Positions 18,556-36,371 of a stretch of 64,000 nucleotides of DNA are shown in pieces (within the stretch, counting starts at the first letter, position 1; every line of letters starts with the position of its first letter). The DNA is from Tangfeifania diversioriginum. GTDB taxonomy: Bacteria > Bacteroidota > Bacteroidia > Bacteroidales > Prolixibacteraceae. The position numbers and the translations under genes are program-made. A model generated the notes under the pieces. The model saw only the letters and a list, made by a program, of their open reading frames with translations, had not been told where the DNA came from and ran no database searches. Where the stretch lies: positions 1-64,000 of the forward strand of contig NZ_FQZE01000020.1 in NCBI RefSeq assembly GCF_900141875.1, read 5' to 3'.

Positions 18556-18570
18556 TGTATTATTTTTATT

Positions 18571-18650
18571 GTCATTTCGACCCGCCAGCTGGCGGGAGGA
18601 GAAATCTGCCATTAAGAAAGAGATCCCTCCTCATTCTTCGTCGGGATGAC
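18571..18650. repeat. GTCATTTCGA palindrome in the trpB-trpA gap
   Basis: An imperfect palindrome starting GTCATTTCGA, with GGAGAAATCTG inside, and ending TCGGGATGAC. It belongs to a family with further members in this operon at 20632-20711, 21201-21302, 21319-21395 and 24063-24159, and at 36171-36371. Confidence 0.8.
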
Positions 18651-18658
18651 AGTGCTGT

Positions 18659-19852
18659 TTAATACCCAAAATAATTTAAATACGTTTCCATATCCTTGTT
18701 GCCGCTGCCCGAAAGATTGATTACGTTCACGTCGTCCGGTTTCATTTTTATTTTTTCGAGGGCAGCCAGAGCATGCGCCGATTCCAGCGCCGGAATGATT
18801 CCCTCTTTTTGGGTGAGTAAGAGGGCAGCCTTTAATACTTCCTCATCGGTTGTCGCCATGTATTTTGCCCGTCCGGTTTTAAAAAGGTGCGCATGCAGCG
18901 GTCCGATTCCGGGATAATCGAGCCCGGCAGAAATGGAGTACGGTTCGGTAATTTGCCCGTCGCGGTTTTGCATGAGCATGGTGCGGCTGGCATGCAGCAC
19001 GCCCGGTGAACCCACCAGCAATGTGGCAGCAGTTTCTTTGGTTTCCACTCCTTTCCCGGCGGCTTCCACGCCAATCAGTTCCACCTGTTCATCGTCCAGA
19101 TAATGGTAAAAAGCCCCGGCGGCATTACTTCCACCACCCACACATGCCAGAATCCGGGTTGGAAATTCGCTGCCGGTTTTTTCCAGGAGCTGGCTTTTCA
19201 TCTCTTTGCTGATGACCGACTGAAACCGGGCCACCATGTCGGGGAACGGGTGCGGCCCTACCACCGAACCGATGATGTAGTGTGTATCTTCCGGATTGTT
19301 AATCCAGTCGCGCATGGCTTCGTTGGTGGCATCTTTCAGCGTTTTGTTGCCGCTGTGAACGGGAATTACTTTGGCGCCCAGCATCTTCATTTTTTTCACG
19401 TTGGGAGCCTGCCGCTGCACATCGAGGTCGCCCATGTAAACTACGCATTTTATTCCTTTGAGTGCGCAAACCGTTGCGGTGGCCACTCCGTGCTGACCGG
19501 CGCCGGTTTCGGCAATTATGCGGGTTTTACCCAGTTTTTCTGCCAGCAGAATTTGCCCTACCGTGTTGTTCAGCTTGTGCGAACCTGTGTGATTCAAATC
19601 TTCGCGTTTCAGGTAAACTTTTGTACCGTAATGTTCCGATAACCGGCCGGCAAAATAGAGCGGAGACGGCCGCCCCACGTAATCTTTCAACAACTGGTCG
19701 AACTCTTTTTTGAATTCCGGCGATTCGATAATCTCCAGATACCGGTGCCGCAGTTCGTCGATGTTGGCATACATCATTTCGGGAATCCACGCCCCGCCAA
19801 ACTCACCGTAATATCCTTTTTCGTTTACGTTGTATTTCATGTATTTCATCAT
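18659..19852 (-). CDS. trpB: Tryptophan synthase beta chain
   Basis: TrpB condenses indole with serine using pyridoxal phosphate. A 397-residue protein with the PLP lysine in HTGSHKLNN, the phosphate-binding [10 protein letters not shown] and the N-terminal [11 protein letters not shown]. The start may be 19852 or the in-frame ATG at 19840 ([12 protein letters not shown]), which matches relatives better. The 3' end is followed by a palindrome and trpA; trpF lies upstream with an intervening palindrome. Confidence 0.96.
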
Positions 19853-19854
19853 TT

Positions 19855-19917
19855 TCTATGTGTTCTATGTGCCTATGTGGTATCTCTCTTAACCACAGTA
19901 GGCACATAGGTCACATA
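19855..19917. repeat. CTATGTG palindrome in the trpF-trpB gap
   Basis: An inverted repeat with arms CTATGTGTTCTATGTGCC...GTGGT and ACCACAG...GGCACATAGG...CACATAG. The last codons of trpF (ATG TGA) lie within it. This is a different repeat family from the GTCATTTCGA palindromes. Confidence 0.7.
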
Positions 19918-20537
19918 GTTATTCTGGTAATAAACTCTTTTAATTTTCCAACATTTTTCACCCCCGGTTCATCTTCAAAACCGCTGTTCAGGTCAATTCC
20001 GAAAAGCCGCGGGTGTTGCAGTTTTTTAATTGCTTCCGCATCTTCCGGTCCGATTCCTCCGCTTAAAAAGAAGGGAACGGTTCCCTGGTATTTTTCAAGG
20101 ATTTCCCAGTTGAATTTTTTGCCGGAACCACCCGGCAATTCCGTTTTTGTGTCGAACAAAAAATAATCAACTGTCGTTTCATATTCCCGCAGTTTTTCAA
20201 ACTGGAATTTCTCACTGAGGTTGAAAGCTTTTATCACTTTTAGCCCTTGGTCTTTCAAAAGCAGGCAGGTTTTCGGATTTTCTTTTCCATGCAGCTGCAC
20301 GAATTCAAAACCAAGATTTTTGGTAAGGCCTAAAATCTCAAACGCGTTTTCATCCACAAAAACGGCCACTTTCGTTTTGGCTGAATTGAAAAGCCCCGGT
20401 TCGGTATTTTCACCCACAAACCGTTTTGATTTCGGGTAAAAAATGAATCCCAGGAAATCAACCGGCAGTTTTTCCACTTCCTCGCGGTTTTGGTTGAATT
20501 TCATTCCGCAGACTTTTATTTTCAAGTTTTTAATCAT
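19911..20537 (-). CDS. trpF: Phosphoribosylanthranilate isomerase
   Basis: TrpF catalyses the Amadori rearrangement of phosphoribosylanthranilate. About 208 residues with the catalytic Cys in IKVCGMKF, then FVQLHGKE and the phosphate-binding LSGGIGPEDA. I start at ATG 20537 (MIKNLKIKVCGM). An in-frame ATG at 20573 would add 12 residues, but these overlap a repeat. The 3' end extends into a palindrome. Cytosolic, fourth step of the trp pathway in order after TrpD. Confidence 0.93.
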   Translation of the reverse strand: MIKNLKIKVCGMKFNQNREEVEKLPVDFLGFIFYPKSKRFVGENTEPGLFNSAKTKVAVFVDENAFEILGLTKNLGFEFVQLHGKENPKTCLLLKDQGLKVIKAFNLSEKFQFEKLREYETTVDYFLFDTKTELPGGSGKKFNWEILEKYQGTVPFFLSGGIGPEDAEAIKKLQHPRLFGIDLNSGFEDEPGVKNVGKLKEFITRITM

Positions 20538-20568
20538 CAAATTTTTTTTTAAAGTTTCATCCGTGCTT

Positions 20569-20750
20569 GTCATTTTGAGTTTTCACCCAATTTTATGGGC
20601 ATAATGAGACGATGACAGGCTAATTATTGCTGTCATTTCGACGAGTATCCGAGGAGAAATCTGTTTCAAATTCAGGGATTTCTCATCCGGAATACCGGGA
20701 TTCGAAATGACATCAGCGTATGGTTTTCTAATTGTTCTCATTATTAGTTA
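20569..20750. repeat. Long composite palindrome, copy 1
   Basis: A repeat of about 180 bases starting GTCATTTTGAG and running through CCCAATTTTAT, ATAATGAGACGAT and a GTCATTTCGA...TCGAAATGAC palindrome (20632-20711). The same unit in the same order is found at 36171-36371. It lies between trpF and the GIY-YIG gene. Confidence 0.75.
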
Positions 20751-20763
20751 TTTATAAAAATAT

Positions 20764-20791
20764 GTCATTGGCACGAGGCACGAGGAGAAAT
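20764..20791. repeat. Left arm of a split palindrome around the GIY-YIG gene
   Basis: GTCATTGGCACGAGGCACG followed by AGGAGAAAT. It is the inverted partner of 21153-21182 (shared blocks TTTCTC, TCGTGCCTC and AATGAC). The GIY-YIG gene lies exactly between the two arms. Confidence 0.65.
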
Positions 20792-20797
20792 CTGTCA

Positions 20798-21100
20798 CTA
20801 TAAAGCTTCATAGATTTCATTATTCAAAAACCACCAATCCGGATTGAATCTGTTTATTAATTTCTCCTTCTTTTCTCTTCTCCATTTTTTTATTTCCTTT
20901 TCTCGTTCAATAGCCTCATTTATGTCTTGCAAATGTTCGTAATAAATCAGAAAATGACAATTGTATTTTTTTGAAAAACCGGGCATTAATCCATGTTCAT
21001 GCTCATAAATTCTTCGTTGTAAATCATTTGTAACTCCAAGATAAAGAACTGTTTTGTTCTTGTTTGTAACAATGTAAATGAAATAATTATGGTCTCTCAT
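20798..21100 (-). CDS. GIY-YIG nuclease-like protein inside the trp operon
   Basis: A 100-residue single-domain GIY-YIG protein. The motif pair appears as YIV...YLG (residues about 9-22), the conserved Arg as DLQRRIYEH, and the metal-binding Glu as AIEREKEIKKW. It ends with the NPDWWFL motif usual for the small stand-alone UvrC/Slx1-like family that occurs in many copies in Bacteroidota. The biological role is unknown. It interrupts trpCF on the same strand and lies between two inverted palindrome arms, so it looks like an inserted cassette rather than a tryptophan gene. Confidence 0.85.
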   Translation of the reverse strand: MRDHNYFIYIVTNKNKTVLYLGVTNDLQRRIYEHEHGLMPGFSKKYNCHFLIYYEHLQDINEAIEREKEIKKWRREKKEKLINRFNPDWWFLNNEIYEAL

Positions 21101-21152
21101 ATTTTTGTTAATGTTCTAATCAAATTACAAAATGTACTGCTATTTAAACAGG

Positions 21153-21182
21153 TTTCTCAGTCGTGCCTCAGATTCGAAATGA
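21153..21182. repeat. Right arm of a split palindrome around the GIY-YIG gene
   Basis: TTTCTCAGTCGTGCCTC then AGATTCGAAATGAC. Inverted relative to 20764-20791. Confidence 0.65.
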
Positions 21183-21200
21183 CAGCTAATCAAAGTATTT

Positions 21201-21302
21201 GTCATTTCCCGCGAAGCGATCCCTTCCGGGAGACGAGTTTGCGAGGAGAAATCTCTAACTATTTGTAGAGATTCCTCGTCGCTTCGCTTCCTCGGAATGA
21301 CA
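21201..21302. repeat. GTCATTTC palindrome upstream of the GIY-YIG gene
   Basis: Begins GTCATTTCCCGCGAAGCGAT, has GAGGAGAAATCTC and its inverted AGAGATTCCTC in the middle, and ends GGAATGACA. Member of the GTCATTTCGA palindrome family. Confidence 0.75.
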
Positions 21303-21318
21303 GCAGTGAACAACGTTT

Positions 21319-21395
21319 GTCATTTCGACGAAGAATGAGGAGAAATCTAATCTTTTCAGCAGATTTCTCTCCCGAGCACTCGGGATCGAAATGAC
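21319..21395. repeat. GTCATTTCGA palindrome overlapping the trpC 3' end
   Basis: Arms GTCATTTCGA...GAGGAGAAATCT and AGATTTCTC...TCGAAATGAC. The right arm (21359-21394) encodes the last 12 codons of trpC. Confidence 0.85.
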
Positions 21396-22174
21396 AGTTC
21401 TGCAATCAGCTTTCTGCATGCCTCCCCCGGATTTTCAGTTTTCATAAAAGTTTCACCAATCAAAAATCCTTTAAAACCGTGCTTCCTTAAATAATGAATG
21501 GTTTCAGTATCGGCCAGTCCGCTTTCCGAAATTTTAACGAACCGCTCGGTAATGAACTTAGCAAGTTCCACCGACGTTTCCACATCCACTTTAAAGGTTT
21601 TCAGGTTGCGGTTGTTCACGCCGACAATATCCACAAAGTCATTCAACTTTGTCAGTTCTTCAGCATTGTGCACTTCCATCAAAACTTCCATGCCCAGACT
21701 TTTGGCTTTTTGGGCCAGTGTTTCCGCCAGTTCTTTTTCCAGGCATGCGGCAATGAGCAGAATCACATCGGCGCCAAACGCTTTGGCTTCCACAATCTGG
21801 TAGGTGTCAATCATAAAATCCTTGCGAAGAATCGGAATTTCAGGATTTACCTCGCGTGCCTTGGCCAGGTTGGCCAGTGTTCCGCCAAAATACTCGTAAT
21901 CGGTTAAAACCGACAATCCGGATGCGCCGGCATCTGCATATCCTTTAGTCACTTCTTCCACTTTCACCCCAAAGTTGATTTCACCTTTGGAAGGCGATTT
22001 CTGCTTAAATTCGGCAATAATTCCTGTAGAATTGTGTTTCAGCAAAGCCGCTTTCAGCGAGTTGCATTTCCGCTGGTAGCCCGGATATTTTTTGAGCTGT
22101 GCCACCGGAATCACTTTTTTCTGCCGGGTAACTTCCACCTTTTTTGTTTCCACTATTTTTTCGAGAATGTTCAT
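21356..22174 (-). CDS. trpC: Indole-3-glycerol phosphate synthase
   Basis: TrpC closes the indole ring from carboxyphenylaminodeoxyribulose phosphate. A 272-residue TIM barrel with catalytic residues in IAEFKQKSPSKG, ILRKDFM and GVNNRNLKTF, and the phosphate site SESGL. The last 12 residues (SFRSRVLGREIC) are encoded by the right arm of a palindromic repeat and are not family sequence; the native protein would end near KLIAEL. The start ATG at 22174 is well placed. Confidence 0.95.
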   Translation of the reverse strand: MNILEKIVETKKVEVTRQKKVIPVAQLKKYPGYQRKCNSLKAALLKHNSTGIIAEFKQKSPSKGEINFGVKVEEVTKGYADAGASGLSVLTDYEYFGGTLANLAKAREVNPEIPILRKDFMIDTYQIVEAKAFGADVILLIAACLEKELAETLAQKAKSLGMEVLMEVHNAEELTKLNDFVDIVGVNNRNLKTFKVDVETSVELAKFITERFVKISESGLADTETIHYLRKHGFKGFLIGETFMKTENPGEACRKLIAELSFRSRVLGREIC

Positions 22175-22187
22175 GTTTCTTGTTTAG

Positions 22188-22327
22188 CACCGTCCTTCAG
22201 GGCGGTGTTGCGTTTAAATTAATCTGCGACCTGGAATTTCCGAAAAATGGTATTTTAAATTTTACCATTTTTCGGAAATTCCTTCTATATCTTATATTCT
22301 TAATTTTCACCGCCCTAAAGGACGGTG
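22188..22327. repeat. Nested double palindrome between trpD and trpC
   Basis: Outer arms CACCGTCCTTCAGGGCGGTG (22188-22207) and CACCGCCCTAAAGGACGGTG (22308-22327) are inverted with one mismatch. Inside are perfect 20-base inverted arms at 22233-22252 and 22263-22282 around a 10-base AT loop. Each outer arm is itself a small palindrome. It looks like a MITE-type element. It would form a strong structure in the trp mRNA. Confidence 0.85.
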
Positions 22328-22334
22328 TTGTTTT

Positions 22335-23321
22335 TTAGACAACCACCGCCTTCAGTTTTTGTAACGCTTTTTCGCTTTTCAGCGATTCTCCGGCCATTTC
22401 CACACATTCCGGCAAACTTTTTTCAGGATAAACCAAATGCAGGCCCACGGCGGCGTTGGCTACCACCACGTTGTTTTGTTCCGCTGAACCTTTTCCTTCG
22501 AGAATATGCATAAAAATCCGGGCTGCCTCCTCAATGGAATCTCCGCCATAAATGCTTTCGGGATGAATTTTTTCAAACCCAAAATCAGCGGGCGCAAGAT
22601 ACCCCTCGGTTTTCTTCTGAGCAAAACGGGTGGAATCGGTCAGTGAAACCTCATCGTACCCGTCGTTGCTGTTAATAACAGTAAAGTTCACGTTGAGTGT
22701 TTCGTACACATTTTTGTAATGGTCAAAATTTTCGGCATTGTTTACACCCAGCACCTGGTATTTTGGCGAAGAAGGATTTATCATCGGCCCGAGAATATTG
22801 AAAAAGGTCTGCACTTTCAGGGCACCGCGGACCGGCGCAATGTATTTCATAGCCGGGTGGAAAAGTGGTGCGTGCATAAAACAGAAGTTGCTTTTGTCCA
22901 AATCGTTTTTCAGTTTGGCCGGATCGTTGCTGAATTTGTACCCCAGCAGTTCCAGCAGGTTCGACGAGCCGCTGGTTGACGAAACCGCGTAGTTGCCGTG
23001 TTTGGCTACATTTACCCCGGCGCCGGCAATAATAAAACAGGCCAGTGTGGAGATGTTAAACGTGTTTTTTCCGTCGCCGCCGGTTCCCACCACGTCGATG
23101 GCGTTGTAATCCGAAAGGTCGGTCACCAGGCACAGTTCGGCCATGGCATCGCGAAACCCGGCCAGCTCATCCGAAGTGATTGGCCGCATTTTAAAAACTG
23201 TGAGAAACGAGGCGAACTCCACCTCGCTGTGCATTCCTTTTCCCACTTGCAGCAAACTTTGTCGTGCCTCAGCGCGGGAGAGCGTGTTTCCTTCAAATAA
23301 ATATTCAAGTGTCTTTTTCAT
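22335..23321 (-). CDS. trpD: Anthranilate phosphoribosyltransferase
   Basis: TrpD joins anthranilate to phosphoribosyl pyrophosphate. About 328 residues with the PRPP site VGTGGDGKNTFNIST, the KHGNYAVSS motif and FNILGPMINPS. I start at ATG 23321 (MKKTLEYLFEG); an in-frame ATG three codons upstream is possible. It is a separate protein from TrpG here, not fused as in some enterics. Confidence 0.95.
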   Translation of the reverse strand: MKKTLEYLFEGNTLSRAEARQSLLQVGKGMHSEVEFASFLTVFKMRPITSDELAGFRDAMAELCLVTDLSDYNAIDVVGTGGDGKNTFNISTLACFIIAGAGVNVAKHGNYAVSSTSGSSNLLELLGYKFSNDPAKLKNDLDKSNFCFMHAPLFHPAMKYIAPVRGALKVQTFFNILGPMINPSSPKYQVLGVNNAENFDHYKNVYETLNVNFTVINSNDGYDEVSLTDSTRFAQKKTEGYLAPADFGFEKIHPESIYGGDSIEEAARIFMHILEGKGSAEQNNVVVANAAVGLHLVYPEKSLPECVEMAGESLKSEKALQKLKAVVV

Positions 23322-23440
23322 TGCAATCAACTATTTTTTGCGGTGCGTGCAACCTTTCTTCTTTTCTGAGCTGATGTGGACGCACCTTGATTTTCTACTT
23401 AAACTAATTAATGCCCAGGTTAAAGCCAGGGCCTGTTTTT

Positions 23441-24046
23441 TTACCTTTTGGGATCCCGTTTTATTATCGGAGAGGAAGGGGCTTTTAACCAGTTTGTAAT
23501 CATTTTTTCACCCAGTGGTGTTAAAACCGATTCGGGATGAAACTGGACGCCTTCCACATCGAATGTTTTGTGTTTCATCGACATAATCATTCCATCTTTG
23601 TCGAAACTGGTGATGTCAAAACAATCGGGCAGGTTTTCCTTTTCCACAATCCACGAGTGGTAACGGCCCACATCGAATGAACCAGGTAAATCTTTAAAAA
23701 GAACGGATTGATTGGCAGTTCGTTTTACCGGCGTGGCCATTCCGTGAATCACACGGTTCATGTTGCGCAGTTTCCCGCCAAAAGCTTCCCCGATGGCCTG
23801 GTGCCCCAAACAAACACCCAGCATGCTTTTTTTCGGTGCATATGCTTTAATAATATCCAAAAGTAACCCGGATTCTTCAGGTAGTCCCGGACCCGGAGAA
23901 AGCACAATTTTGTCGTACTTTTCGATATCTTCCAATGCAATTTCATCGTTGCGAAACACATCCACCGGCAACCCCGAAATCTTTTTGATGGCATGCACCA
24001 GGTTGTAGGTGAATGAGTCGTAATTGTCTATAACCAGTATTTTCAT
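23441..24046 (-). CDS. trpG: Anthranilate synthase glutaminase subunit
   Basis: TrpG releases ammonia from glutamine for TrpE. About 201 residues, class I glutamine amidotransferase; the nucleophile Cys is in LGVCLGHQAIG and the His-Glu pair in VQFHPES. N-terminus ILVIDNYDSFTYNLV is diagnostic. I start at ATG 24046 (MKILVIDNYD); seven upstream codons are in frame but unconserved. A palindromic repeat separates it from trpE. Confidence 0.95.
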   Translation of the reverse strand: MKILVIDNYDSFTYNLVHAIKKISGLPVDVFRNDEIALEDIEKYDKIVLSPGPGLPEESGLLLDIIKAYAPKKSMLGVCLGHQAIGEAFGGKLRNMNRVIHGMATPVKRTANQSVLFKDLPGSFDVGRYHSWIVEKENLPDCFDITSFDKDGMIMSMKHKTFDVEGVQFHPESVLTPLGEKMITNWLKAPSSPIIKRDPKR

Positions 24047-24062
24047 TTTCTTTGTTTTTGTT

Positions 24063-24159
24063 GTCATTTCGACGAGTATGCGAGGAGAAATCTGCTGTAA
24101 TGAAACAGATTTCTCCTCCTGCGTCGTCTCCCGAATGGGATCACTTCGCGGGAAATGAC
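24063..24159. repeat. GTCATTTCGA palindrome in the trpE-trpG gap
   Basis: Arms GTCATTTCGACGAG...GAGGAGAAATCTG and CAGATTTCTCCTCC...GGAAATGAC. It ends two bases from the trpE stop and begins 17 bases before the trpG start, filling the whole gap. Confidence 0.8.
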
Positions 24160-24160
24160 A

Positions 24161-36097: not shown

Positions 36098-36170
36098 ACC
36101 TGTAAACTAAAATTTTCATTTCTTTCAAAATGAAGGCAATTTATATGGGTGCGAATATCTTCGGGAACCT

Positions 36171-36371
36171 GTCATTCCGAGTTTTTACCCAATTTTATTG
36201 GACATAATGAGACGATAACAGACTAACTATTGCTGTCATTTCGATCCCGAGGACTCGGGAAGGAGAAATCTGTTTCAATTTCAGAGATTTCTCACCCGGA
36301 ATACCGGGATTCTCACAAAGTGATCGCTTCGCGTGAAATGACATCAGCATGTGACTTTCTAATTATTTTCA
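36171..36371. repeat. Long composite palindrome, copy 2
   Basis: Same order of blocks as 20569-20750: GTCATTCCGAG, CCCAATTTTATTGGACATAA, GAGACGAT, GTCATTTCGA, GGAGAAATCTGTTTCAA and GAAATGACATCAGC. It ends near CAGCAGATTTC. Confidence 0.75.

Follow-up and report, generated by a model that had tools for sequence, protein, structure and literature searches.

The window analysed here, a 64,000-nucleotide stretch of the Tangfeifania diversioriginum genome (contig NZ_FQZE01000020.1), carries on its minus strand a trp operon in the order trpE, trpG, trpD, trpC, a long gap containing a 100-aa GIY-YIG ORF, trpF, trpB and trpA. The trpC, trpF, trpD and GIY-YIG assignments are based on Pfam, and the remaining trp names on the sequences as read. 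The trpC gene (21356..22174, minus strand) encodes indole-3-glycerol phosphate synthase (PF00218, E 4.8e-79; NF001377, 287.5 bits against a cut-off of 260), and as the PF00218 match comprises residues 4–256 of 272, the protein has a tail beyond the barrel domain. In the trpD-trpC gap there is a different inverted repeat (CACCGTCCTTCAGGGCGGTG, 22188-22327), with arms 100 nt apart; between them lies a further pair of 20-nt arms that match each other perfectly as complements (22233-22282).

The 3′ end of trpC and its relatives

At the 3′ end of trpC lies a 79-bp REP-like inverted dimer with outward TGTC tags (21318..21396, no strand), recognised by arm complementarity, folding, and a covariance model score of 74.1 bits, the dimer itself being one of the 11 sequences used to build that model. 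A sequence-only reading had placed a palindrome at 21319-21395; the palindrome exists, but its span required correction by one further base on each side. Complementarity is complete both between the outer arms, TGTCATTTCGA (21318-21328) and TCGAAATGACA (21386-21396), and between the inner arms, GAGAAATCT (21340-21348) and AGATTTCTC (21361-21369). Folded as the minus strand, the palindrome reaches −32.1 kcal/mol (z −4.87), with none of 200 shuffles equally stable. A known RNA family was considered for the repeat region and rejected, there being no Rfam match at the gathering threshold in 19000-24000.

The trpC stop codon, TGA (21356..21358, minus strand), falls within the dimer spacer, between the arms. 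Upstream of it, positions 21359-21394 on the minus strand are read in the trpC frame as SFRSRVLGREIC, and the repeat does supply the last 12 codons of the gene, as the same reading had proposed; these codons (21359..21394, minus strand) consist of one dimer arm plus two spacer bases.

TrpC C-termini were compared across 27 related loci (L050–L076, of 80 returned), the nearest named trpC genes being those of Mariniphaga and other Prolixibacteraceae. Twenty-five of the 27 relatives end at residue 260–267 with no element-coded tail, in keeping with the earlier statement that the family usually ends soon after the barrel. The two closest relatives, Mariniphaga sp. KA03 (L050, 86% identical) and M. 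sediminis (L051, 83%), have an element after the same Leu codon, into which TrpC is read (..KLSFRT* and ..ELSFLT*, respectively), and in other relatives, L052, L056 and L063 among them, a native TGA directly follows that Leu. No relative among the 27 shows the same tail with no repeat. To judge from these alignments, the further claim that the insertion took over from the native stop is probably correct, and the simplest reading would be a single insertion, replacing that stop, in the common ancestor of the window, L050 and L051. The insertion is common to the three genomes and the 12-residue tail is found in the window alone; tail lengths of 12 (window), 4 and 4 (L050 and L051) arise because the inner part of the arm differs between the lineages. 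More broadly, the trpC-trpF gap contains at least one element arm at 9 of 28 loci, the window counted. In the M. sediminis gap, the TTTC-to-GAAA module of one arm appears to run in the opposite orientation to that in the window and L050, as though modules within arms were able to flip.

Taken alone, the TrpC tail is a new case of a known thing, namely REPs at gene ends. It is a case in which a repeat rewrites the predicted C-terminus of a biosynthetic enzyme, a change retained in three genomes.

The repeat family in the genome

The covariance model, built from 11 copies, gave 46 hits in the 4.78-Mb genome, which resolve to 24 places, a lower bound since 150 of 2588 first-look candidates were scored. 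Within the model copies each arm is built of TGTCATTTC, a variable module, and then GAAATCT (with single-base variants), and the arms face each other with TGTC outward. All 11 aligned elements start with TGTCATTTC, and some weaker model hits have a degenerate end. Many of the 24 places lie within ~140 bp 3′ of an ORF, and at none of them does an ORF of at least 80 aa span an element. Across the 24, trpC is the sole clear gene with its stop inside an element; the trpE stop abuts one. A 131-aa ORF on C49 also ends in an element, a putative coding case.

Five further dimers, none assigned to a strand, occur in the window. The first, identified by repeat comparison and the covariance model, is the second in the trpC-trpF gap (21200..21302). 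The other four, also among the covariance model hits, are located as follows: before trpF (20631..20712); between trpE and trpG (24062..24160), absent at this junction in L051; between trpB and trpA (18570..18651), absent at this junction in L050; and outside the trp operon (36234..36343). The listed ORF starts of trpG and trpA fall inside the elements at 24062-24160 and 18570-18651, respectively, and in both genes a later Met may be the real start. Two copies of another TGTCA-ended sequence with a ACCCAATTTTAT core, at 20568-20620 and 36170-36230, adjoin the dimers, and similar sequences were seen at L002 and L055.

GIY-YIG nuclease genes are associated with the repeats

The trpC repeat belongs to a family that is coupled to a GIY-YIG gene ~0.25 kb away, a connection absent from the sequence-only reading. 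This gene (20798..21100, minus strand) encodes a protein of 100 aa (PF01541, E 6.1e-16) with conserved catalytic residues. It is contained in a 422-bp unit (20763..21184, no strand) consisting of a half-element, the ORF and an inverted half-element, the halves, both degenerate, having been located by repeat comparison beyond the 3′ end (20763..20793, no strand) and the 5′ end (21150..21184, no strand) of the gene. The window's flanks give an inverted-repeat score of only 13, under the survey threshold of 16. Cleaner copies of the layout are found at L287 and L289 (both 19.5) and L291 (16), and Maribellus maritimus (L069, score 15) has a 399-bp unit of the same build in the same trpC-trpF gap. 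At L066, a GIY-YIG gene with such hairpin flanks lies just upstream of trpC.

In Pfam the 100-aa protein has the GIY-YIG domain and an overlapping T5orf172 match, with no added DNA-binding domain. Together with the PF01541 match, conserved Y9, Y20, R30 and E67 place it in the GIY-YIG superfamily: across 150 of 159 proteins, Y9 is conserved in 147/147, Y20, G22, H34 and E67 in 150/150, and R30 in 149/150. From this conservation the protein looks active. Values of dN/dS (0.039–0.258) are weak evidence, since no more than 10 of the 28 pairs yielded one and dS exceeded 1 in most of these. A phage origin of the nuclease was rejected, there being no match in 50,697 phage records (E 1e-5) and one weak, unnamed PHROG. 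A structure-based function was likewise set aside: the single-sequence AlphaFold model was poor (pLDDT 62.5) and the best Foldseek match, the UPF0213 protein 1zg2, was weak (E 0.015), so that no conclusion was drawn from the predicted structure.

Several other observations concern GIY-YIG genes. At L173 and L292 the ORFs seem to read into the flanking repeat (SSATLRMTG and SSAHLTMTG near the end), as TrpC does. GTCAT hairpins are absent from seven more small GIY-YIG genes in the genome to which the window belongs. Other kinds adjoin tRNA genes (L012/L013, G000:C43:156415-156923; L019, G000:C57:41134-41349), with two tandem copies after tRNA-Ser, each trailed by sequence similar to the 3′ end of the tRNA, and one more next to tRNA-Met, which points to a relative associated with tRNA genes.

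Homologues of the GIY-YIG gene were detected in 83 of 247 Bacteroidia genomes (E 1e-15). The locus survey comprised 129 loci from the Bacteroidia listing, of which two were dropped for short flanks, leaving 127 in the inverted-repeat test. Terminal inverted repeats, the classical criterion for IS and MITEs, were present (score at least 16) at 57 of these 127 loci, compared with 4 of 562 control ORFs and 0.7% of 1270 re-paired flanks; the other 70, the window's own among them, scored under 16. Many arms around the genes take the form [C/T]GTCAT-hairpin-ATC. By a strict count, 13 of the 67 loci with a score of at least 14 have TGTC[A/C]T close to the outer end of their left arm, and others start with CGTCAT or GTCAT, face the opposite way, or have unrelated repeats.

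A generic hairpin finder, which looks for GTCAT-NNN..N′N′N′-ATC in the flanks, returned at least one hairpin at 88 of 129 GIY-YIG loci versus 45 of 564 control ORFs, and hairpins on both sides at 56 of 129 versus 5 of 564. Among the 56 two-sided loci, the nearest pair faces inward in 29 and has the same stem type in 36. The control ORFs were drawn from trp neighbourhoods (L050–L122), and because gaps there are short the test was repeated on wide-gap ORFs: of 88 control ORFs with 100 bp or more of free sequence to either side, seven had any hairpin and one had hairpins on both sides, this being the GIY-YIG gene of L066.

The RAYT family was also considered as the mobiliser of the TGTC repeat, and is disfavoured by the finding that none of seven RAYT ORFs tested in the window's genome (of eight Y1_Tnp matches) has a GTCAT hairpin in its flanks. 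Five RAYT-like genes (L130, L131, L133, L134 and L135) have other inverted repeats in their flanks, with scores of 14.5–23 (e.g. CCGGCTTAAGCCGG at L130), and two repeat systems may therefore coexist in the genome.

Repeat type was defined as the NNN of the stem, giving 100 labelled rows of seven types, and was mapped onto a tree of 156 proteins (3 of 159 dropped as short or identical; 98 columns; 72 of 153 inner branches open), the label tests leaving out 45 unlabelled rows and 11 with rare repeat types. Repeat type changes 30 times on this tree, compared with a shuffled mean of 60.9 (0/200 as low). TGC-type rows fall almost entirely (29/30) in one clade of 45, and the clade holding the window gene is TTC-type in 10 of 10 rows; TCT-type rows show no clustering on the tree, and CCT-type rows hardly any (45/500 shuffles as low). 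When labels were permuted only among loci of one genome (17 genomes, 38 loci), the mean was 38.9 and the minimum 32, with 0/300 as low as observed, so host background alone fails to explain the type matching. In several genomes, TTC-type and TGC-type repeats have inner modules in common (e.g. AGGAGGAACGACT), as if ends and modules recombine.

Repeat copy number also follows the matching nuclease. Among 100 genomes of the family, with clade cut-offs (at least 133 bits; E 1e-30 with the L302 query) picked by the author after seeing the hits, and with patterns that miss short arms, TTC-type repeats average 25.9 matches where a TTC-clade gene is present (found in 10 of 11 such genomes) and 2.1 where it is absent (10 of 89), and TGC-type repeats occur in 13 of 14 with a TGC-clade gene (mean 8.3) and 35 of 86 without (mean 1.8). 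Neither cross-comparison of a repeat type with the other clade's nuclease was significant in the 100 genomes, and the reversed repeat patterns matched nowhere. Genus-stratified permutations gave p values of 0.0044 (TTC) and 0.0006 (TGC), in a test with some circularity, as each nuclease locus contributes repeats of its own. When 2, 4 or 6 copies were subtracted per nuclease-bearing genome, the TTC effect survived throughout; the TGC effect held at 4 copies (p 0.003) and failed at 6 (p 0.13). Individual genomes depart from the trend: G315 has the most TTC-type matches (91), yet no TTC-clade gene at E 1e-18, and G034 has a TTC-clade gene and zero pattern matches, its arms being too short for the pattern.

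The layout extends beyond Bacteroidia. A tblastn search of plasmids gave 21 records with a match, and of 11 loci examined, a set with no matched control, seven have strong inverted repeats (score at least 23) around the GIY-YIG gene: two from Shinella, and one each from Sinorhizobium meliloti, Rhizobium CIAT894, Neorhizobium, Azospirillum lipoferum and Aeromonas caviae (example arms, CGTCATCCTCGGGCTTGACCCGAGGATCCA). Spirosoma and Planktothrix loci are weak (14), and those of Sinorhizobium K101 and Rhizobium tumorigenes have no inverted repeat (7.5). Comparison with relatives yielded no usable empty site for the Rhizobium CIAT894 and Spirosoma loci. The same layout with CGTC..CCA repeats was found at six alphaproteobacterial loci, and a similar one in Aeromonas.

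At the A. lipoferum locus, the sufB-sufC gap contains a REP dimer, the GIY-YIG gene and a second REP dimer, with the gene between the two dimers and outside any loop. In A. oryzae, A. ramasamyi, Azospirillum B510, A. thermophilum and A. brasilense, the same gap is without gene and repeats, so that no pre-existing REP target is seen at the site. No target-site duplication was found by eye at sufB-sufC, or at the trpE-trpG and trpB-trpA junctions.

Proposed movement of the repeats and comparison with known systems

We propose, with a probability of about 0.6, that the TrpC tail derives from a dimer inserted after Leu260, and that the cognate enzyme and mobiliser of the repeat family is the GIY-YIG nuclease. 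That the window's own unit scores below the survey threshold slightly lowers our confidence in the nuclease as mobiliser. For the tail, the comparison of relatives supports insertion of a TGTC-tagged REP-like dimer after Leu260 in an ancestor of three Mariniphaga-lineage genomes, the trpC reading frame then continuing through one dimer arm to a stop within the element. In the mechanism that we consider most likely, the single-domain nuclease, encoded between inverted copies of the repeat, would recognise the tagged hairpin and cut it at the tag or close by. New intergenic sites, frequently a short way 3′ of genes, would then receive the element by copying or joining, whether or not it carries the gene. 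The nuclease would act in trans on short dimers, much as RAYT is thought to move REPINs. Since each nuclease clade would recognise its own stem sequence, the matching of clade to repeat type is also accommodated. We infer mobilisation here, movement itself not having been observed, and many of these patterns would also be expected from homing or from a protective function.

The alternative that survives best, which we consider unlikely, is that the GIY-YIG gene is a homing parasite: old REPs would have spread by other means, and a homing-type gene would cut dimers and be copied into their loops. It was in homing enzymes that GIY-YIG nucleases were first recognised (PMC1564403), many loci have the gene flanked by half-elements, and a nuclease that targets the repeat would likewise show clade-to-type matching. 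Repeat copy number, however, rises with the matching nuclease, which need not happen with a parasite of repeats already in place. The A. lipoferum gene and dimers are, moreover, all missing from the gap in five relatives, and the 100-aa protein is without an added DNA-binding domain in Pfam.

A protective function is rather less probable again. Here the nuclease would cut or resolve the cruciforms formed by its own repeats, allowing the host to tolerate them, and repeats would gather where the nuclease is present. The copy-number link and the conserved catalytic residues fit this explanation, as may a weak Foldseek resemblance of the low-confidence predicted model to Slx1, a branched-DNA nuclease (E 0.07), but it leaves unexplained the position of the gene between inverted repeats in many genomes. 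Passive association, in which permissive intergenic space collects REPs as well as small GIY-YIG genes and an ordinary intergenic insertion produced the trpC tail, would account for elements often lying just 3′ of genes and for the many GIY-YIG genes with no detected repeats, yet is very improbable given the rarity of two-sided repeats around wide-gap control ORFs (1/88, that one a GIY-YIG), the clade-to-type matching within genomes and the lack of GTCAT hairpins around RAYT genes (0/7). The empty A. lipoferum site and the copy-number link together favour mobilisation by the nuclease over homing or protection, without amounting to proof.

A broader proposal, for which we put the odds a little short of even, is that the CGTC/TGTC REPs of several phyla, including RPE-4/6 and dRS3, are non-autonomous partners of very small mobile elements. 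The sole protein of these elements would be a ~100-aa GIY-YIG nuclease, and they would be moved by hairpin recognition and nuclease-driven copying, with no transposase of the DDE, HUH or tyrosine kind; protein tails like the one on TrpC would be by-products. A GIY-YIG mobiliser would carry the REP concept beyond RAYTs to a nuclease of unrelated fold, and would assign a function to a gene named only ‘GIY-YIG nuclease family protein’ in public records. Among the papers listed by full-text searches of mostly open-access journals, none was seen to link GIY-YIG genes to REPs.

Among the closest known systems are the CGTC-tagged REPs of Di Nocera et al. 2013, for which no dedicated transposase had been found and the closing question was what mobilises them (PMC3733652). 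A ~100-codon gene, often between repeats, type-matched by clade and tracking copy number, is a concrete enzyme candidate for that question. The paper lists S. meliloti and A. lipoferum among the CGTC species (PMC3733652), and in both a GIY-YIG gene was found here between such repeats; it equates RPE-6 and RPE-4 of Rickettsia with CGTC-1 and CGTC-4, and counts Neisseria dRS3 with the CGTC/TGTC-tagged REPs (PMC3733652). As described there, CGTC REPs resemble the window element in having a CGTC/TGTC tag at one end, a stem opening with complementary AT and inverted dimers, in being intergenic near gene 3′ ends and sometimes inside ORFs, and in having no adjacent RAYT; the paper found no enzyme dedicated to them, and GIY does not occur in it as a word (PMC3733652). 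The window family has the terminal tag of the superfamily (CGTC, with TGTC or CCTC in many) and the AT stem start, the latter required by the generic finder (GTC-AT..AT-C) that gave matches near 88/129 GIY-YIG genes, and intergenic inverted dimers, near gene 3′ ends at many of its 24 places. An 8–9 bp stem with a 4–5 nt loop fits the alphaproteobacterial arms by eye, whereas the window arms have variable inner modules. The unpaired CCA tail is likewise seen in alphaproteobacterial arms, which end ATCCA, whereas window arms end ATCT, and the window element is therefore called REP-like and placed outside the four published CGTC families.

Rickettsia palindromic elements are similar in that a palindromic repeat is read in frame within a host protein. 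They differ in being recurrent in-frame insertions inside protein genes, whereas the repeat here is C-terminal and supplies the stop, with trpC the one clear coding case of 24 places. GIY-YIG homing endonucleases of the I-TevI type share the catalytic domain and a mobile-looking gene; the gene described here differs in being without an added DNA-binding domain and flanked by multicopy inverted repeats, with no intron or intein context noticed around it, and although it lies between half-elements, the empty A. lipoferum sites are also without the repeat. The REPIN/RAYT system (GTAG REPs and a Y1 tyrosine transposase) differs in its enzyme, a GIY-YIG nuclease here, no Y1 transposase gene flanked by the same repeats having been found among the seven RAYT ORFs, and several RAYT genes of this genome lie beside other palindromes. 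What the two systems have in common is their organisation: short inverted dimers, a gene flanked by the same repeats, and gene clades matched to repeat types.
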